A stretch of 45,575 nucleotides of DNA from NCBI GenBank assembly GCA_017476265.1, contig JAFVAC010000044.1, positions 1-45,575 of the forward strand, read 5' to 3'. The stretch is from Clostridia bacterium (GTDB lineage: Bacteria; Bacillota; Clostridia; Christensenellales; DTU072). The translations under genes were made by a program, and so were the position numbers. The notes under the pieces are model-generated. The model had not been told where the DNA came from and did not search any database. It saw only the letters and a list, made by a program, of their open reading frames with translations. Below are positions 24,356-45,121 of this stretch, one piece after another; the first letter of the stretch is position 1, and each line of letters starts with the position of its first letter.

Positions 24356-26395
24356 CTACGACAAACTCTTTTTCAAAGTCAAAATATTCTTGCCGTCCAC
24401 ATACGAATAGGTGACTTCGTCCATATTCTTTTTGACCAGATAAATGCCCAGTCCGCCCACTTCCCGCTCGTCGGCGGAGAGCGTCAGATCGGGGTCCGGT
24501 TTTGCCAGCGGGTCATAGTGCATGCCGCCGTCCATGAAGGTCAGGTAGGCGGCGGTCCCCTCTTTTCGGATCGACACGCACACCGGCCCGATCTCGGGGT
24601 GATAGGCGTAGTTTTTGATATTGACGTAGATCTCTTCGGCGCAGAGGCGGAATTGTTTTTGCACCCTATCGGAGGCGCCGACGCCGATCAAAAAGTCTTG
24701 GACAAAGTCGTACACTTTCTGCTCGTTTTCGGCATTTGCCAAGACGGTAAGGCTCTCTTCTTGACCGCCGCCCTTATACTCGAAACAGAGCGTCGTCAAA
24801 TCGTCGAATCGGGGCGCGTCTTTTACAAAGTCTTTTACGCTCGTCTCTATGCTTTCGACGATCTCTTTCGGCGCGGCTCCTCTCCCGGCGAAGAGTCTCG
24901 CCATTACGCGATCCATTCCGAACATCTTTTTGTCCACGTCCATCGCCTCGGGCAGACCGTCGGTGTACAGGAAGAGTTTTTCTCCACGCTTCAGAGAGAA
25001 CTCGTACTCTTTATACCGCACCCCCTCCATCGCTCCGATCACAGGACCGTGCTTACTTTTGACAAATTCCACTTCACCGCCCTCTCTTACGACCAAAGCG
25101 TCGTCGTGTCCGGCATTGGCGAACTTCACCGAGCCGTCTTTCAAGTCGATGACGCCCAGCCACACGGTGACGAACATATCGGCGTTGTTGTTCGCTAAAA
25201 CGCGCTCGTTGACGAAAGTCAAAGTCTCCGCCGGAGTCCTGTTGGTCAAGACGCTCTCTTTGATCAATATCTTAGACACCATCATAAACAGCGCGGCAGG
25301 GACGCCCTTGCCGGAGACGTCCGCCATCACCACAGCCAAATGATCTTCATCGACGAGATAGAAATCGTAAAAGTCCCCTCCGACCTCCTTTGCCGGCGTC
25401 ATCATCCCGAAAAGGTCGAAGTCCGTCCTGTCCGGAAATGCGGGATAGACCGACGGAATGGCGCCCTCCTGAATGACGCTCGCCACTTGGAGTTCGGTCC
25501 CGATGCGCTCCTTTTCGGCGGTCGCCAGAGTCAAATTTTTCATATACTCCAGCGTTTCGGTCTCCATTTTCACCATACTGGTAGACAAAACTTTAATTTC
25601 TCGCAAAGAACGGAAGCGATGCGCTTTCCAGTCGATATCGCCTTTTTTGCTTTCCGAAGCGAAGCGTTTTGCTTCGGCGGAGAGTTCTCCGATGGGGCGG
25701 ACGAGATTGAATCGTAAAAACAAGCCGAAGAGCGCCGCCACCACCGCGATGAGTACCGCCGTCACAATGGCGATCAGATTCAGGTAGCTTTGACGTCCCT
25801 GTCGCAGTTCTTCCATGGGACGCTGGACGCACAGGATCCCTTTTGTCGTCCCGTCGCTGCCGACGAGGGATTTTAGGTAGGTGATATGAGGCAAGGCGAC
25901 TTCCGTCCGAACGTCGCGCACGACAGTCGCCGACAACAGACCGTTTTCGTACATATTTTTATAGATCGCGGCATACTCGTCGTTGGTCGTGGCGACGACT
26001 GTTCCGATCTCCCACGGCGTGTATGAAGTCGTATCGGGGTTGGGCGAATTGAAGACGGACACGAAGTGTTTGTAGTCGGTCGCGTCAGGGACGATGACGT
26101 AGACGATACTGACCCCCTGCGATACACAAAGAGCGTCCAGATAGCCTTTGCTTCGGACATAATCCTCGCTCTGTCCGTCGCTTTCCAGATACGCCTCGAT
26201 CCTATCGACGTCGATGAGCATAGTCGCTGTCTTCGCGGTGGAAAAAGCCGCCGCTTCGTACTGCGCCGTCAAGCTCTCGGTGAACTTTTCATAGCCGATC
26301 CAACTGACCGACAGCCCGAAGACGCTCAAAAAAACGACTACGGACAAAACGACGCGAAATGTGATCCCTGTGAAAAAACTCTTTATTTTCTCCAT
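24356..26395 (-). CDS. Membrane sensor with PP2C/SpoIIE phosphatase and anti-sigma-type ATPase
   Basis: 679 residues. TM1 (about 11-33), an extracytoplasmic sensor (34-205), TM2 (206-228) and a HAMP-like linker starting RFNLVRPIGEL (228-285) lead to a short coiled coil. A PP2C/SpoIIE domain (320-545) has the metal residues: GGDFYD (Asp341), ADVSGKG (Asp359), YTDG (Asp479) and DDLT (531-534). A HATPase_c_2 domain (550-677) follows, with an N-box-like EEIYVNIKNYAY (588-599), DGG (622-624) and GGLGIYLVKK (647-656), as in RsbW/SpoIIAB. The family dephosphorylates STAS proteins; the ATPase domain phosphorylates them or binds them. Having both in one chain, next to a STAS gene, implies a self-contained switch. 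It is the last gene of the operon, six bases after the STAS-kinase. Confidence 0.92.
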   Translation of the reverse strand: MEKIKSFFTGITFRVVLSVVVFLSVFGLSVSWIGYEKFTESLTAQYEAAAFSTAKTATMLIDVDRIEAYLESDGQSEDYVRSKGYLDALCVSQGVSIVYVIVPDATDYKHFVSVFNSPNPDTTSYTPWEIGTVVATTNDEYAAIYKNMYENGLLSATVVRDVRTEVALPHITYLKSLVGSDGTTKGILCVQRPMEELRQGRQSYLNLIAIVTAVLIAVVAALFGLFLRFNLVRPIGELSAEAKRFASESKKGDIDWKAHRFRSLREIKVLSTSMVKMETETLEYMKNLTLATAEKERIGTELQVASVIQEGAIPSVYPAFPDRTDFDLFGMMTPAKEVGGDFYDFYLVDEDHLAVVMADVSGKGVPAALFMMVSKILIKESVLTNRTPAETLTFVNERVLANNNADMFVTVWLGVIDLKDGSVKFANAGHDDALVVREGGEVEFVKSKHGPVIGAMEGVRYKEYEFSLKRGEKLFLYTDGLPEAMDVDKKMFGMDRVMARLFAGRGAAPKEIVESIETSVKDFVKDAPRFDDLTTLCFEYKGGGQEESLTVLANAENEQKVYDFVQDFLIGVGASDRVQKQFRLCAEEIYVNIKNYAYHPEIGPVCVSIRKEGTAAYLTFMDGGMHYDPLAKPDPDLTLSADEREVGGLGIYLVKKNMDEVTYSYVDGKNILTLKKSLS

Positions 26396-26401
26396 ATCGC
26401 T

Positions 26402-27586
26402 CTAAAAATACAGTTTGTCCATCGTCGGGACCAGCTCTTCCAGTCCGGAAACATACGCGGTCAACATCGCGCTCTTTTCCTCTTCGGTGGCTTGCGTCTT
26501 GTTGAGAGTCCGACGCACCAAGCGTGTAAAGCAGAGGACGCGTAGTTTTTTCTCCACCTCTCTGAGCTTTTCCTCGTCGTCGGTCCCGAAGTAAAAGCGC
26601 ATCGTTTCGTCGAAGAAACGTCGCGCTAAAGCCGCTGGGATCCCCAAAAACTTTTCCACGACAGTGGGATCAAGTTCGGAAAAACCGACGTAAGCGAGAT
26701 AGATCGCAGCCAACTCGAACACGGGATGTCCCATCGTCAGCGTATCCATATCGATCAAAAGATTCTCCCCGCCCTGACGCATGATGTTTTTGATATGAAA
26801 GTCTCCGTGCAACATATTGGTTGTATCGGGAATATCCTCGACGAGGCGACGGAGTTTGACAAAAGTCTCCCTCTTCAGGTACGGCTCGGTATGTGAAACC
26901 CAACTGCGCGCCTCGATCTTGACGTCCGGAAGGTCTCCGGGCTTCAACTTGGTGGCGTGTATGATTTTCAGGATATCGACGCCGGCTTTGGCGAGTTCTT
27001 GCACGCGCTCCGGCTGTCTTTGCAAGATCGCGGCAAAGGACAGTGCGTCCAGCATCTCGAAGACAGAACCGTACTTGTCCCCCACTTTAACGACGTCGTA
27101 CGGTATGGCGGTAGGGACTCCCATCACGAACGCTTTTCTGGCGAGGTCTCGCTCTTTTTGTATCTCTTCCAGCGCGTCGGCGTTCCTGTACACCTTTACG
27201 ATCATATCCGCTCCCACTCTGTAGACGACGCCGTTGGCACCCTCCCCAAGTATCTCGCATCCTGTGATATCGACGGTGCGATACGCTTTTTCTATTTCCA
27301 TCATCTCGGTAAAACCGGTCATATCGAATATCTCGTACACGTCGGAACGGACGTTTGTGACGACCGTGTTTTTGTGCGCTTTCTTGACGCGGAGAACAAC
27401 GCGGAGCCCCGCGCTGGAGACGTAGGCAAGATCTTCGGCGTCAAGGACGAGACGATCGGCGTCATCAAGACCTTCCATCGCGGAAAAGATCTCCCTTTCC
27501 ACTGAGGAGGCGTTGCTTGACTCTATCCGTCCGGCTATACGAAGAATGACGCAACCGGGTTCGCTCTTTTTCTCTAAGGCAAACAT
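26402..27586 (-). CDS. STAS domain fused to an APH-type kinase
   Basis: 394 residues. Residues 1-105 are a STAS (anti-anti-sigma) domain: LVLDAEDLAYVSSAGLRVVL has the conserved Ser58/Ser59 where SpoIIAA/RsbV proteins are phosphorylated. Residues 108-394 are an aminoglycoside/choline-kinase-like domain: a nucleotide loop LGEGANGVVYRV (113-124), Lys131 in IVKVY, the catalytic HGDFHIKN (260-267) and the metal-binding LIDMDTLTMG (277-286). The kinase motifs are complete, so activity is likely. Its substrate could be a small molecule, a protein or the STAS domain itself. AGGAG stands before ATG 27586. The gene lies nine bases after the HD gene and six before the phosphatase gene. The fusion is unusual next to stand-alone RsbV-type proteins. 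Confidence 0.9.
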   Translation of the reverse strand: MFALEKKSEPGCVILRIAGRIESSNASSVEREIFSAMEGLDDADRLVLDAEDLAYVSSAGLRVVLRVKKAHKNTVVTNVRSDVYEIFDMTGFTEMMEIEKAYRTVDITGCEILGEGANGVVYRVGADMIVKVYRNADALEEIQKERDLARKAFVMGVPTAIPYDVVKVGDKYGSVFEMLDALSFAAILQRQPERVQELAKAGVDILKIIHATKLKPGDLPDVKIEARSWVSHTEPYLKRETFVKLRRLVEDIPDTTNMLHGDFHIKNIMRQGGENLLIDMDTLTMGHPVFELAAIYLAYVGFSELDPTVVEKFLGIPAALARRFFDETMRFYFGTDDEEKLREVEKKLRVLCFTRLVRRTLNKTQATEEEKSAMLTAYVSGLEELVPTMDKLYF

Positions 27587-27595
27587 ATTTTACTC

Positions 27596-28162
27596 CTATT
27601 CGTAACGGTCAAAAATATCGTGGAAGATCGAAGAAAGTTCTTTGTACGCAGGGTACTCCGCCAAGACGCCCAAATAGGACAACACGGCGTCATAGTACCA
27701 CTTGTGCATCAGAGGATCGTGGACGTTAAAGTGCAAAAAAGCGTCTTTCCCCTCTCGATCGTGGGTGCGCTTGAGACTCCTCAGATTGCTGAGTTTGTCC
27801 CCGAGCCAGAGCATTTTTTCCTCCATCCTACCCTCTTTGAGATAGTTCAGCGTCTCTTCCTTGCGGACTTTCCAGGTATCTCCTTTGGGGAGACCATCGC
27901 GCTTATTTTCCGTTTCGGCGAGGACAAGAGAGAGCACTCGATCGCCGAAAGCCGCTCTGATCTGCTCCTCCGTCGTATCGGTGTCCTCCAATACGTCGTG
28001 CAGGACCGCCGCGGCAAGGACTTCCGGGTCATGCGTCATCGTAGCGACGATCGAAGCGTCCTCCAAAGGATGCACGATGTAGGGCGCGCCGTCTTTCCTG
28101 ACCGTGCCCGAATGCGCTTCCGTCGCAAAAACGATCGCTCTGTCCAAAACACTGTTATCCAT
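27596..28162 (-). CDS. HD-domain hydrolase, (p)ppGpp hydrolase (Mesh1/SpoT) type
   Basis: 188 residues from ATG 28162, chosen for GGAGGAG just upstream. The metal ligands of the RelA/SpoT HD domain are in place: His31 in YIVHPLED, His55-Asp56 in VLHDVLEDT, and Asp122 in LGDKLSNLR. No synthetase or TGS domain follows, so it is a single-domain hydrolase like Mesh1, which removes the 3'-pyrophosphate of (p)ppGpp and related nucleotides. Related small HD proteins may use other phosphorylated nucleotides. It is the first gene of the operon with the STAS-kinase and the PP2C sensor, which suggests that a nucleotide signal feeds into that switch (inference). Confidence 0.88.
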   Translation of the reverse strand: MDNSVLDRAIVFATEAHSGTVRKDGAPYIVHPLEDASIVATMTHDPEVLAAAVLHDVLEDTDTTEEQIRAAFGDRVLSLVLAETENKRDGLPKGDTWKVRKEETLNYLKEGRMEEKMLWLGDKLSNLRSLKRTHDREGKDAFLHFNVHDPLMHKWYYDAVLSYLGVLAEYPAYKELSSIFHDIFDRYE

Positions 28163-28200
28163 ATCTCCTCCAAACGATTCCCGTAACTCAAAAAACAAGC

Positions 28201-28238
28201 AAAAATGTTCTTCCCCCTACAAGGACAAAAACATTTTT
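28201..28238 (-). promoter_or_regulatory. Long hairpin in the leader of the HD/STAS/PP2C operon
   Basis: Arms AAAAATGTT / AACATTTTT extend inward (TTT/GAAG side with GU pairs, then GTCC/GGGG with one mismatch) to a ~16-bp stem and a loop of about six bases. It lies between the promoter and the ATG at 28162, and the 3' arm ends in a U-rich stretch, so it could act as an attenuator. Confidence 0.55.
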
Positions 28239-28254
28239 CATCGTCTTTACTGTA

Positions 28255-28283
28255 ATGATACCATAAAAACACTATCCGTCCAA
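28255..28283 (-). promoter_or_regulatory. Promoter of the HD/STAS/PP2C operon
   Basis: TTGGAC (28283-28278), 17 bp, TATCAT (28260-28255) with an extended TGG in front of the -10. Confidence 0.75.
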
Positions 28284-28314
28284 ACAAATGAACGGCATTT
28301 GTCTTGCATCGCAC

Positions 28315-28345
28315 GCCGTGCATATGGATAAAAATCGTCATCCTG
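28315..28345 (+). repeat. Dispersed repeat, copy 1
   Basis: GCCGTGC, then GGATAAAAATCGTCATCCTG. Nearly identical to 28519-28548. Confidence 0.75.
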
Positions 28346-28374
28346 CAATTTGCCCAAAGGGCAAACTAACGAGG
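28346..28374 (+). repeat. Hairpin plus CTAACGAGG intergenic repeat, copy 2
   Basis: TTTGCCC-AAA-GGGCAAA (28349-28365) directly followed by CTAACGAGG. Compare 9271-9298. Confidence 0.6.
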
Positions 28375-28518
28375 GAAAACAAAAACCCAAAACCGTATTG
28401 ACTTATACGCATAGACCAAACCCGAATATATAATCGGTAAATACGAGTGGCGTAGCCGAAGAATCTCCGGGGATACTTCGACTTCGTGCTACGCACTTCG
28501 CTCAGTATGACGGCATTC

Positions 28519-28548
28519 GCCGTGCGCAAGGATAAAAACGTCATCCTG
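28519..28548 (+). repeat. Dispersed repeat, copy 2
   Basis: GCCGTGC, then GGATAAAAACGTCATCCTG, about 200 bp after copy 1. Confidence 0.75.
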
Positions 28549-28695
28549 ACCAAGCGAGTGCAACAAGCGCGTGGAAGGATCCCGGGGATGGTTCGACTAC
28601 GCTCACCATGACGGTTGTGTCCCGACCGTTCTTTCGATTCCTTTCTTTGCGCCAAGAAAGGAACATACTATTTTGATATATAAATTCGTGAAAAT

Positions 28696-40615: not shown

Positions 40616-40644
40616 CATATACTTTTTTCGTTATTACTTTGCAA
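40616..40644 (-). promoter_or_regulatory. Possible promoter of the small membrane protein gene
   Basis: TTGCAA (40644-40639), 17 bp, TATATG (40621-40616), overlapping the end of the BspA gene. Confidence 0.5.
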
Positions 40645-43600
40645 TATCCCCATCGCTACAATGGATCGTATAGGCTCCGGTAGAAGAATTCCACCCCGAT
40701 TTCTTGTCGATTGCGTTCCACCGCGTTTTCGTCCCTTGGTAGATGATGCTCGTAAGGGAGATGCAATTTTCGAACGCACGCTCAGCTATATACCTCACGC
40801 TGTTGGAAATCGAGACACTGTCTAAACTAAAGCATCTATAGAACACCCGCTCATCTATCACTGTCACGCTGTCCGGAATCGTTATACTTGTTAAACTAGT
40901 ACAACCGCGGAATGCCTGTTTCCCTATGCTCGTCACACTGTCAGGGATCGTGATGCTTGTAAGAGAGGTGCAATAGGAAAACGCAGATTCCCCTATGCTC
41001 GTCACGCTATCCGGGATCGTGATACTCGTAAGGGAGGTGCAATCATAGAACGCCCATTCCCCTATGCTCGTCCCACTCGTGATGGTCACCGATCGCAAAG
41101 CACTATTTGCAATAAAACTACATGCTATCGCAGGGATTATCGCTGTCTCAATCAGACACCCCTCAAACGCATTCATCCCTATTCTCGTCACACTGTCAGG
41201 GACCGTGACGCTCTCTATACTTATTTTTTCATTATGATAGAACGCCCCTTGATTGATCTCCGTTATCCCTGCGGGTAAAGTTAGTACGGTATCATTTCCG
41301 GTATATCCGATCAAAGATATCTCCTCTCCGTCGGTATACAGGATATAGCCGTCTTCATCGGTGGAGAGTTTGCTGACGTAAGGTTCGGTATAAACCGCTT
41401 TGGCATAACGTCCAACGTAGCCATTATCTTCACTGCCTATCGTAATATTCAAAGAGGACTTATTGTAGACTTCCACTAATTTATAGCAATATCTGAATGC
41501 CGCACTCCCTATGCTCGTCACACTGTCGCCGATCGTCACGCTCGTAAGTCCCATGCAATCACGGAACGCATAATTCCCTATGCTCGTCACCCCGTCATCG
41601 ATCGTCACACTCCTAAGAGAGGTGCACTTATCGAACGCATACTGTCCTATACTCGTCACGCTGTCAGGAATCGTAATGCTAGTAAGAGAGGTGCATCTCG
41701 CAAACGCACTATTCCCTATGCTCGTCACGCCGTCGCCGATCGTCACGCTCGTAAGTCCGGTGCAATTAGAGAACGCAATACCCCCTATACTCGTCACGCT
41801 GTCACCGAGTGTAATAGACGTCAACATAGAGCAATAGGAGAATGCTCCGTACGGGATATTCCCACCCGTGACCGTTACGCTCCGCAAAGTGGACGGTATA
41901 TAGTAGGTTGTCTTTGTGGTGCTCGTCGTGGAAGAACCATAGTAATATTGTGTTACCTTAGTCCCGCCGGTATAGGAATCCGTACCAAAGATATATCCAA
42001 AGGGATATTGATACGTATCACTACTCGTCTTGCCGGCAACAGCTCCTATGAAAGGTATGGTTATACTCTCTAACGAGGAACAACCGTAAAAAGCATCGTA
42101 CCCGATACTTGTCACGCTGTCCGGGATCGACACACTCGTTATGCTCGTATTGTTATTGAAAACATATTGATAAATCTTCGTTATCCCTGCGGGTAAAGTG
42201 AGTTCGGTATCATTTCCGGTATATCCAATCAAAGAGATCTCTTCTCCGTCGGTATACAGGATATAGCCGTCTTCATCGGTGGAGAGTTTGCTGACGTATG
42301 GTTCGGTATAAACCGCTTTGGCATAATAGCCAACGTAGCCATTATCGCTACTGCCTTTCGTTATATTCAAAGAGGACTTATTGTAGACTTCTACTAATTT
42401 ATAGCAACCATAGAACGCACGCTCCCCTATGCTCGTCACACTGTCCGGGATCGTGATGCTTGTAAGAGAGGTGCAACCGGAAAACGCAGATCGCCCTATA
42501 CTCGTCACACTGTCGGGGATCGTTACGGCCGTTGATGTCATATCTTTTATTCCCGTTAAGGTACAAGTCGTTTTTGTAGACGTAAAAGTAAATGGCTGCA
42601 AATCTTCTACAACTTCCCATTTTGCAGAATATAACTTATTATCTGCAGACGTCATAAATAAATAAGTATTATTCGTATTGTCGCTGACCTTTGTTTCTCT
42701 TTCATACCACCCGAGCCAAGTGTACTCGATATTGGTGTCTATCACAAGGGACACGGACGTATCTTTCGGTACAAAGACCGCCTGTCCGCCGATCTTGCCG
42801 CCGGAAGTCGGGGTATTGGCGCCGGATACGCAAACGTAGAAGGTGTTGCTGTAATACCCTTTGGTGCACTGTAATTGATAGACGTGCCCCGCGGTCCCCG
42901 TAAAGGTGAAAGAATTCGACGAAGTGGACGAGCAAGTAAAGGACTTGATCGTTTCGTCAGCGGTGGCGTCGTACAATACGACGGACACGCTATAGGAAGA
43001 GCCGCTCGATTCGACGTAGTAGCGGGTCGTGAACGTGCCGTCGGCGAGAATGGCGAACTGCCTGCATACCAGCGTCCCGACGACTCCGACGGCGGTGTAC
43101 TTGTAAGACGAGGACTCCACCGGCAATATGCTCCCGACCGTCTCTACCCAACCGGCATAGACCTTGGTATCATTGCCGATGCCTTTGGAGAAGTCAAAGA
43201 GTTCTTCACACCCTTTGGTCGTGTACCACCCGGTAAAAGTGTATCGGTCGGAGGTGGGAATTGTCGGATAGCGCATTCCGCTGTCTTTGGTGATAATCTG
43301 CGGCTCGATAGCCTCCGCTTTGACGCCGTTGAGATCGAAGGACAGGACGTAGCTATCCTTGTTGACGTACACGATCGCCTCGCCCGCTTCATCTATGTTC
43401 TTTTCCACGGCAATTTTGTAGAGTTTTTCGATCGTATATTCTTTTGCCGGGGAGATGAGATAATCGGCGTTATCGTCGAATGCATGTACGGTGAAAGTGA
43501 TGGCTTCTCCCGACCATAGCGAGGCGTCTTTGGCGACTTTGTACGTCCGTTCTTCCTGCCGTATCTGTTTTTCTCCGAACGTAAGGACGTACGTGGTGGC

Positions 43601-45121
43601 ATACGTCACGGCGTCCCACGACAAGGTATACTCCTCCGTCGTATAGTCATAGTCGATATCCACCGTCGGCATTCTTAATTTCATCTTGTTACAACGCACC
43701 GAGGAGGAAGACGTCACCCAATTCTCTCTCGCCGCGTCTACGACGATGGTATAACTGCCGGCGTCATAGGCAGACATATCGAAGGTGGTCTCCGTCTGCT
43801 CGGAGAGGAGAGTGTTGCCGGTGACTTCTCTGTTATAGACCCGGTATACCGAAGCGTTTTCCACCGGGTTCCAACTGACAATAGCCGTCTGCTTGTCAAA
43901 AGACAATCCGGTCAGGTTGTCCAATACGCGGAGTTTGTAGGTGTATGTCCTCGTGACGTAGGAGGAGTTCGTCGTCGTGTTACCGTCGCCGCGTGCTCGG
44001 ATCCCGACCGTATAGCGGTACGTCCCCTCCAGCGTGGGAAGAAGATTATACGGGAAGACCCATTGCGTGCTGTTGTTGTTTTCATTCAGCGTGTTCTCGT
44101 CCAGATACTTGACGTACACTTGATAGCCTTCCGCCCCGCTGACGGGATCCCACGAGAAAGTCCTGTCCTCGACGGACACCGACGGCGCGCGGAGTTGTCC
44201 CTCTTCGGTGATCTCCTCCACCCAGTCGGCATAGAGGACCAGGTCGTCGGTAGTCACTTTTGCGCTCATGTTCCATTTGATATTCAACGTTTCGTCCGTA
44301 TACCAACCGTTAAACTCATATCCTCTACGGACGGGGACAAACGTGACAAAGCCGTTTTCGGTGGTTTTTATTTCCCGTCCCGCGCCGGAATAATTCAATA
44401 CAAAATCAACTTGATGTTCGACCAAAACCTTTGTCCACATGGCGTACAAAGTCAAATTTCCCGTGACCTTGTCAGTCGAAAAATCCCATCTTACATTGCC
44501 GCTCTCATCCTTCGCCCAACCGCCGAATTCGTATTCCTCTCTGGAGGGGGAAGCGGGTTCGGAAAGGGTCTCGTTATTGTTGACTCTGACGGTCAGTTGC
44601 GATCCGGAAGAAAAGCGTCCGCCGTTCCCATCGAACGTGACGGAGTATTGTATTACGGTCGGCGTAGGATCGGAAGGTGTAGACGGTCCGGAGGGTGTGG
44701 TCGGATCTCCGCCCTCTTCGCCGGGAAGGAGGGGCGTGGAGTCCTTGTTGGTCGCGGAGCTCTTATCGGAGTAATAGCTTCGATAGGTCAGTCCTGCCGT
44801 CGTCCAACGGAAGATCCCGTCCGAAGCGGTCCCATAGCAGAAGACGTCCTCTTCTCCGAAGACGGAGACGTACAGATACAGTACGCCGTTTTTGTTTTCC
44901 AACCGTCCGCTTTCGCCCTCGTTGTCCGACCAGGTGTCTCCGGAGAGGCGGATCCAGTCGTTCGACTGTTTGACGTTATTTTTATAGGCGTAATAGGTGC
45001 CGTCGATCCCGCTATCCGAGCCGCCACCGCTGCCGCAAGCGACCAAGAGCAAAGAGCAGACCATCAGCAGACACACCACCGACAGAAAGGAAAGACTTAT
45101 TCTTCTTTTAGACGACTTCAT
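40634..45121 (-). CDS. BspA/InlB-type LRR surface lipoprotein (1,495 aa)
   Basis: Lipoprotein signal (KSSKRR, hydrophobic core, lipobox LLVAC with Cys29 lipidated), then a short beta domain and a Pro/Thr/Ser linker (about 130-155). Two InlB B-repeat-like units follow (FGGWAKDES...TLYAMWTK; FNGWYTDET...VLYADWVEE), then fibronectin-like segments (about 315-600), a third B-repeat-like unit (FTGWYTTKG), and from about residue 870 to the end a long set of LRR_5 repeats of ~23 residues with the pattern SVTSIGESAFSYCTSLTSI. Two 229-bp copies of one segment lie inside the LRR region. The LRR part is more AT-rich than the N-terminal half. Surface adhesins of this kind are common in gut Firmicutes; the ligand is unknown. 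ATG 45121 is preceded by AAGGAG. Divergent from an XRE gene. Confidence 0.92.
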   Translation of the reverse strand: MKSSKRRISLSFLSVVCLLMVCSLLLVACGSGGGSDSGIDGTYYAYKNNVKQSNDWIRLSGDTWSDNEGESGRLENKNGVLYLYVSVFGEEDVFCYGTASDGIFRWTTAGLTYRSYYSDKSSATNKDSTPLLPGEEGGDPTTPSGPSTPSDPTPTVIQYSVTFDGNGGRFSSGSQLTVRVNNNETLSEPASPSREEYEFGGWAKDESGNVRWDFSTDKVTGNLTLYAMWTKVLVEHQVDFVLNYSGAGREIKTTENGFVTFVPVRRGYEFNGWYTDETLNIKWNMSAKVTTDDLVLYADWVEEITEEGQLRAPSVSVEDRTFSWDPVSGAEGYQVYVKYLDENTLNENNNSTQWVFPYNLLPTLEGTYRYTVGIRARGDGNTTTNSSYVTRTYTYKLRVLDNLTGLSFDKQTAIVSWNPVENASVYRVYNREVTGNTLLSEQTETTFDMSAYDAGSYTIVVDAARENWVTSSSSVRCNKMKLRMPTVDIDYDYTTEEYTLSWDAVTYATTYVLTFGEKQIRQEERTYKVAKDASLWSGEAITFTVHAFDDNADYLISPAKEYTIEKLYKIAVEKNIDEAGEAIVYVNKDSYVLSFDLNGVKAEAIEPQIITKDSGMRYPTIPTSDRYTFTGWYTTKGCEELFDFSKGIGNDTKVYAGWVETVGSILPVESSSYKYTAVGVVGTLVCRQFAILADGTFTTRYYVESSGSSYSVSVVLYDATADETIKSFTCSSTSSNSFTFTGTAGHVYQLQCTKGYYSNTFYVCVSGANTPTSGGKIGGQAVFVPKDTSVSLVIDTNIEYTWLGWYERETKVSDNTNNTYLFMTSADNKLYSAKWEVVEDLQPFTFTSTKTTCTLTGIKDMTSTAVTIPDSVTSIGRSAFSGCTSLTSITIPDSVTSIGERAFYGCYKLVEVYNKSSLNITKGSSDNGYVGYYAKAVYTEPYVSKLSTDEDGYILYTDGEEISLIGYTGNDTELTLPAGITKIYQYVFNNNTSITSVSIPDSVTSIGYDAFYGCSSLESITIPFIGAVAGKTSSDTYQYPFGYIFGTDSYTGGTKVTQYYYGSSTTSTTKTTYYIPSTLRSVTVTGGNIPYGAFSYCSMLTSITLGDSVTSIGGIAFSNCTGLTSVTIGDGVTSIGNSAFARCTSLTSITIPDSVTSIGQYAFDKCTSLRSVTIDDGVTSIGNYAFRDCMGLTSVTIGDSVTSIGSAAFRYCYKLVEVYNKSSLNITIGSEDNGYVGRYAKAVYTEPYVSKLSTDEDGYILYTDGEEISLIGYTGNDTVLTLPAGITEINQGAFYHNEKISIESVTVPDSVTRIGMNAFEGCLIETAIIPAIACSFIANSALRSVTITSGTSIGEWAFYDCTSLTSITIPDSVTSIGESAFSYCTSLTSITIPDSVTSIGKQAFRGCTSLTSITIPDSVTVIDERVFYRCFSLDSVSISNSVRYIAERAFENCISLTSIIYQGTKTRWNAIDKKSGWNSSTGAYTIHCSDGDIAK
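41261..41489 (-). repeat. 229-bp internal repeat in the BspA gene, copy 1
   Basis: Pairs with 42179-42407; I count 15 differences by eye. Encodes VYTEPYVSKLSTDEDG and the residues around it. Confidence 0.93.
42179..42407 (-). repeat. 229-bp internal repeat in the BspA gene, copy 2
   Basis: Copy spacing is 918 bp, an exact multiple of three, so recombination between the copies would stay in frame. Confidence 0.93.

Follow-up and report, generated by a model that had tools for sequence, protein, structure and literature searches.

Partner switching is known mainly as a device for freeing sigma factors, as in the RsbU/RsbV/RsbW/SigB and SpoIIE/SpoIIAA/SpoIIAB/SigF systems, and there are few exceptions in which the output is an enzyme. 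One of these is SiaABCD of Pseudomonas aeruginosa, in which SiaC activates the diguanylate cyclase SiaD in an enzyme output of partner-switch-like logic (PMC8457831), and hence sigma-free partner switching is already known. A phosphatase and an RsbW-type kinase within one chain are also already known, both from Mycobacterium tuberculosis Rv1364c, which has an N-terminal PAS and a C-terminal anti-anti-sigma domain (PMC12143880), and from SypE of Vibrio fischeri, a dual Ser kinase/phosphatase for the STAS protein SypA, whose target is unknown (PMC8256260). From a separate field, HD enzymes of the small alarmone hydrolase type strip the 3' phosphate or pyrophosphate from alarmones and the 2' phosphate from NADPH, and XccSAH hydrolyses several alarmones as well as NADPH (PMC9765508). 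Herein we describe an operon with parts of all these kinds in a 45,575-nucleotide stretch (the window; GenBank JAFVAC010000044.1, contig 24 of 122) of a 2.0 Mb, 93% complete genome of a Clostridia bacterium (assembly GCA_017476265.1). We propose, judging from sequence and with a confidence only slightly better than even, that it is a partner-switching operon that acts independently of sigma factors and instead regulates an APH-type kinase, to which a STAS domain is fused.

The three genes are on the minus strand in the order HD hydrolase (28162-27596), STAS-APH fusion (27586-26402) and membrane sensor (26395-24356), with intergenic gaps of 9 and 6 bases, and rechecked open reading frame positions agree with this arrangement as it was given in a prior reading of the DNA made from the letters alone (the sequence-only reading). 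The STAS-APH protein (394 residues) consists of a STAS domain (residues ~3-102) followed in the same chain by an APH-type kinase (~108-394), as seen by Pfam (STAS, 1.6e-12; APH, 1.1e-16), in the AlphaFold2 model (mean predicted local distance difference test, pLDDT, 93.7) and by structure matches. The STAS part of the model overlays RsbV as seen in its complex with RsbW (6m36; Z 16.2, 97 residues, 1.8 A), and alignment with the SpoIIAA/RsbV Ser places the predicted phosphorylation site at S58 of the S57-S58 pair (codons at 27413..27418). Across 30 sequences S58 is invariant and S57 nearly so, and we infer the role of S58 from that of its counterparts in RsbV and SpoIIAA. The APH catalytic residues (K131, H260-G-D262, N267 and D279) are likewise invariant in 30 sequences, which bears out the claim that a STAS domain with a conserved Ser is joined to a complete APH-type kinase. 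The protein belongs to the APH superfamily by a Pfam score over the cut-off, an invariant HGDxxxxN motif and metal-binding Asp, and a kinase-like fold match, and its best NCBIfam match, TIGR02172, reaches 107.6 bits against a curated cut-off of 228.2, which places it outside that family. The APH part of the model matches many small-molecule kinases (Z 14-16), and no substrate can be read from the structure, as the solved relatives (aminoglycoside, choline, methylthioribose, fructosamine and other kinases) score alike.

The sensor (24356..26395, 679 residues) is predicted by Pfam and AlphaFold2 to consist of a transmembrane segment, an extracellular alpha/beta (Cache-like) domain at about residues 60-193, a second transmembrane segment, a linker helix, a PP2C domain and an HATPase_c_2 domain, and in the model two long helices flank the extracellular domain ahead of the PP2C and ATPase domains. 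For the sensing part a Cache fold is likely, if weakly supported, from the shape of the model and from Pfam hits in a few relatives. The full chain matches SpoIIE/PP2C (2.7e-47) and then HATPase_c_2 (4.2e-16) in Pfam, and its best solved match is the RsbU-RsbW part of Rv1364c (3ke6, E 4e-19). Within the PP2C (SpoIIE) domain (24776..25351; SpoIIE profile, 1.5e-48) the metal-binding Asp residues are conserved, with D341, D359, D479 and D532 invariant in 16 sequences, and the RsbW/SpoIIAB-type ATPase domain (24368..24739; HATPase_c_2, 2.1e-17) has an intact N box (E588, N592) by comparison with SpoIIAB motifs. In this domain E588, N592, D622, G624, G648 and G650 are invariant in 16 sequences and match those of the genome's own SpoIIAB. 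A complete PP2C site and an RsbW-like ATPase in one membrane-bound chain, as first noted from the letters, are thus seen in the alignments as two invariant sets of catalytic residues.

The first gene of the operon (27596..28162) encodes a 188-residue RelA/SpoT-type HD_4 protein that resembles small alarmone hydrolases. Its best start is the ATG at 28162, preceded by GGAGGAG, and not the TTG at 28198 where the open reading frame opens. The protein matches HD_4 in Pfam (E 3.7e-19) and spoT_relA in NCBIfam (4.5e-24), with Lmo0812 (4yf1, 8e-28) as the closest solved chain and human Mesh1 (3nr1, 3e-13) also matched. All of the Mesh1/SpoT-type ligands that it was said to possess are invariant in 15 sequences (H31, H55-D56, E59, and D122 and N126 of D122-K-L-x-N126, numbered from the ATG), and, like Mesh1, it consists of an HD_4 domain alone, which carries the HD, ED and N ligands. 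A role as antitoxin to a toxic alarmone synthetase is not favored, as the small synthetase of this genome is on another contig (C67) and the long Rel is on C7, neither of them adjacent.

A first scan of the genome collection gave 37 relatives of STAS-APH, and genomes were later sampled by taxon to avoid bias from the patterns of the query. The fusion was present in 24/391 genomes sampled from the class, 15/200 from the order, 5/398 from the phylum (at a stricter cut) and 44/394 from another order of that class (with the cut tightened further). The flanks of 75 distinct STAS-APH loci were scored in six frames, where a neighbor is a gene within 6 kb or a fused domain, and a core set of 58 close relatives was defined by an APH score above 300 bits. 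A PP2C or RsbW-type ATPase neighbors the fusion or is joined to it at 49 of these 58 loci, and across the 58 the neighbors include a stand-alone STAS gene at 41, PP2C at 37, PHP at 26 and HD at 16. In many relatives from the first scan STAS-APH is closely preceded by HD and closely followed by PP2C-ATPase, with a stand-alone gene for a STAS protein of 98 residues often in between, and the layout of the window, which has no extra STAS, is found again at two loci (L028 and L031). Since the source genome has, over its 2.0 Mb, just three genes of the SpoIIE type and three of the HD_4 type, such adjacency would rarely arise by chance (an estimated ~2% or less per locus), and from its recurrence across families we consider that the gene set is not chance. 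Hence the trio is not a peculiarity of one genome; had it been one, this would have spoken against the sequence-only reading. Two other genes recur near STAS-APH. A protein of ~195 residues that lacks a Pfam match is near 18 of the 58 core loci (for example L095 4159-4728, L101 4341-4937 and L139 3332-3934), and it is at most weakly similar to the RsbW-type ATPase domain (a profile match at 26% probability). A Y_phosphatase3-type gene, representing a third type of phosphatase, adjoins some distant STAS-APH genes (L103, L104, L106 and L212-L214), mostly where partner-switch neighbors are lacking, and in one case (L106 7269-8207) its product has a lipoprotein-like signal.

At 32 of the 58 core loci (confirmed by Pfam for L025) STAS-APH and the RsbW-type ATPase share one chain, and these fused ATPase domains keep intact motifs. 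In a first tree the eight ATPase-fused members then known formed one clade with support of 100/100 that also included one unfused member, so the joining of ATPase, STAS and APH was probably a single event. In a more distant relative, known from one draft genome, HD, STAS and APH are in one open frame of 582 residues (L147 3279-5025). An HD gene is on the same strand beside STAS-APH at 16/58 core loci and a PHP-family phosphoesterase gene at 26/58 (for example L099 8049-8915), such that one or the other is present at 42/58, mostly directly adjacent, and both at none. By distance, 21 of the 26 PHP genes are directly behind STAS-APH or STAS-APH-ATPase, and the others are one or two genes away or upstream. 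The overlap of zero compares with 7.2 expected (plain hypergeometric P 8e-6, which ignores kinship). However, the HD/PHP state requires only about four changes on the tree and significance is lost in a pairs test that takes kinship into account, which is why we regard the exclusion as a lead and not as established. The best NCBIfam match of the PHP proteins is to 3',5'-nucleoside bisphosphate phosphatase, at 98-110 bits against a cut-off of 400, and their solved relatives include 2yb1. Both HD and PHP enzymes act on ribose-bound phosphates of nucleotides, which is established for the two families and would by extension apply to the members found here. The exchange of HD with PHP, together with the HD-STAS-APH fusion, is at least as suggestive of an enzyme that acts alongside the kinase as of an alarmone input, and the kinase may be partnered by a hydrolase of nucleotide phosphates, perhaps for a single shared metabolite.

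What, then, is the output of this circuit? Classical sigma control, in which STAS is an anti-anti-sigma factor, the ATPase is an anti-sigma factor that acts on a distant sigma such as SigF or another sporulation sigma, and APH is an accessory, would be served by the parts of the locus, as the STAS domain with its Ser, the GHKL kinase with its N box and the PP2C domain with its metal-binding Asp all have the needed residues, and the genome has SigF, which is of the kind bound by SpoIIAB. By region 2, six sigma-70 proteins were found in the genome, RpoD, SigE, SigF, SigG, SigH and SigK, most of them scoring below strict equivalog cut-offs yet with no better match, and all six are assigned elsewhere, so no cognate sigma factor turned up in this search. 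SigF itself is preceded by SpoIIAA and SpoIIAB, with SpoIIE on another contig, all as separate genes, and thus already has its partners. A sigma-like gene is within 6 kb at only 4 of the 75 loci, the two that were classified being SigK, so that there is no recurrent sigma neighbor, and the invariant active-site residues of APH argue that the kinase is not a relic. We therefore regard sigma control as quite improbable. The sole other STAS/PP2C set in the genome (contig 62, L057 4417-8601) comprises a MatE transporter with a C-terminal RsbW-type ATPase, a 98-residue STAS protein and a second sensor-PP2C-ATPase, is just downstream of a non-ribosomal peptide synthetase-like gene, contains no sigma gene and possibly controls the transporter. 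Such a set is one of the grounds for supposing that the output is a transporter or other partner in trans, a MatE protein or dicarboxylate symporter with an RsbW-type domain, with STAS-APH as a modified STAS messenger. Matches of the MatE-ATPase type are near 20/58 core loci (by a coarse profile that other ATPase domains match too), and symporters with an RsbW-like part are between STAS-APH and STAS or PP2C at L009, L015, L019 and L026. None of these transporters is present at the window locus or at many others, however, and the ATPase-like domain of the symporters is without the N-box Asn, which makes this the least probable of the readings that we considered. The sodium:dicarboxylate-type symporters beside STAS-APH, in which the RsbW-like domain is N-terminal and the N-box Asn is replaced, are candidate pseudo-ATPase receivers (L009 6378-7970, L026 9126-10730, L015 9138-10733 and L036 1229-2872).

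A third possibility has nucleotide chemistry as the main product, with HD (or PHP) and APH as an enzyme pair for one metabolite and the partner switch as one of several regulators. The same-strand association with HD or PHP but never both, the nature of the best PHP match (albeit below its cut-off), the presence of 2yb1 among the solved relatives and the single HD-STAS-APH fusion are all in its favor, but an exclusion that depends on so few switches is not significant once kinship is considered, PHP is mostly limited to the ATPase-fused clade, and on balance we think it unlikely. Several observations also count against our own proposal of a STAS-gated kinase. That no unassigned sigma-70 factor is among the six must be read with a search by region 2 only, with sigma-54 not searched, in an assembly that is 93% complete. 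Neither a phosphatase nor an ATPase is found near certain STAS-APH genes, most of them distant (L104, L107, L111, L145, L146 and L181), and therefore the kinase can exist without the circuit. The stand-alone STAS gene is absent at the window locus, and the usual substrate of the ATPase could therefore be another protein, while no other genome sampled from the genus or the family has STAS-APH, so the copy in the window is patchy or acquired. With regard to a mobile-element origin, zero STAS-APH matches were found on 72,556 plasmids.

We nevertheless favor control of the STAS-fused kinase. The sequences show which domains are present, that their catalytic residues are intact, that the genes cluster in relatives too, that some of them are fused and that no free sigma-70 factor was found, whereas each biochemical step is an inference. 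The membrane protein would sense an external cue and set the balance between the PP2C phosphatase and the RsbW-type kinase that it carries, the latter phosphorylating and the former dephosphorylating Ser58 in STAS. If RsbV/RsbW is a guide, the dephosphorylated form of STAS would bind the ATPase domain and the phosphorylated form would not. Depending on the state of Ser58, the kinase would thus be either tethered to the sensor (or, in the fused clade, to the ATPase domain within the same chain) or free. Docking might then alter the activity or the place of the attached APH kinase, in either an activating or an inhibiting manner. HD most probably works alongside the kinase and would hydrolyze a nucleotide phosphate, possibly the same or a related metabolite. 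A more specific form of this scheme, which we rate as rather doubtful, is that the partner switch sets the level of a phosphorylated nucleotide, with the STAS-gated APH adding a phosphate (e.g., at the ribose 2' or 3') that HD or PHP removes, giving a sigma-free system with its own nucleotide messenger or cofactor pool. As to the sequence-only reading, its central claim that the circuit acts on the STAS-fused kinase and not on a sigma factor gained from the conservation of the set, the lack of a free sigma-70 and the ATPase within the STAS-APH chain at 32/58 loci, while a single promoter, a self-contained circuit and an alarmone input gained no such support. The circuit is doubtfully self-contained given that most relatives have the stand-alone STAS gene that is lacking here, and upstream of the operon a consensus scan has just one promoter-like match (TGGACG-16-TATCAT with a TG upstream of the -10, at 28255..28282), which is no better than chance (2 matches compared with 2.9 expected).

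The surroundings of the operon are ordinary, with MgtE to one side and, to the other, an oppositely oriented pair of chromate-transporter genes (by Pfam). Upstream are about 500 bases (28199-28695) that contain no clear gene and several hairpin-like stretches; a dispersed repeat was rejected here, as the 23-base piece that was tested is single-copy in the genome. Elsewhere in the window (40634-45121) is a gene for a protein of 1495 residues that contains tandem repeats of 23 residues (69 bases) and may be a leucine-rich-repeat protein of the cell surface.

If correct, our proposal means that partner switching is a general device for the control of enzymes. In many uncultured gut and rumen Clostridia a kinase of the small-molecule type is repeatedly joined to these parts or encoded along with them, and the exchange of HD with PHP provides a concrete lead to the kinase substrate. 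No description of a STAS-APH fusion, or of its association with small alarmone hydrolases or PHP enzymes, was found in the open-license full-text literature. Compared with the RsbU/RsbV/RsbW and SpoIIE systems, the locus shares the PP2C, the STAS domain with its conserved Ser and RsbV fold, and the GHKL kinase, whose N box is intact, but it has no sigma gene, the phosphatase and kinase are in one membrane chain and STAS is joined to APH. The sensor is like Rv1364c in that PP2C precedes an RsbW-type domain in a single chain, but unlike Rv1364c, with its own PAS and anti-anti-sigma domains, it is membrane-bound and its STAS partner is on a separate chain. In the SypE/SypA pair the STAS protein stands alone, without an APH kinase or HD hydrolase. 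The HD protein resembles Mesh1, XccSAH and the Lmo0812-like small alarmone hydrolases as a stand-alone HD_4 domain with metal and catalytic residues, a likeness of sequence, and differs from them in being encoded with a STAS-kinase and a sensor phosphatase. STAS-APH shares with the APH-type phosphotransferases of TIGR02172 the HGDxxxxN motif, the downstream Asp and the ATP-site Lys, and is set apart from them by its N-terminal STAS domain and a score below their cut-off. Closest in logic is SiaABCD, whose SiaA is similar to the PP2C domain of the sensor, and where that system has SiaD the three operon proteins have no diguanylate cyclase domain (by Pfam) and the output would instead be an APH-type kinase joined to STAS. 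From this fusion, control of an enzyme of the SiaABCD type, by a phosphorylation-dependent STAS contact, is likely.

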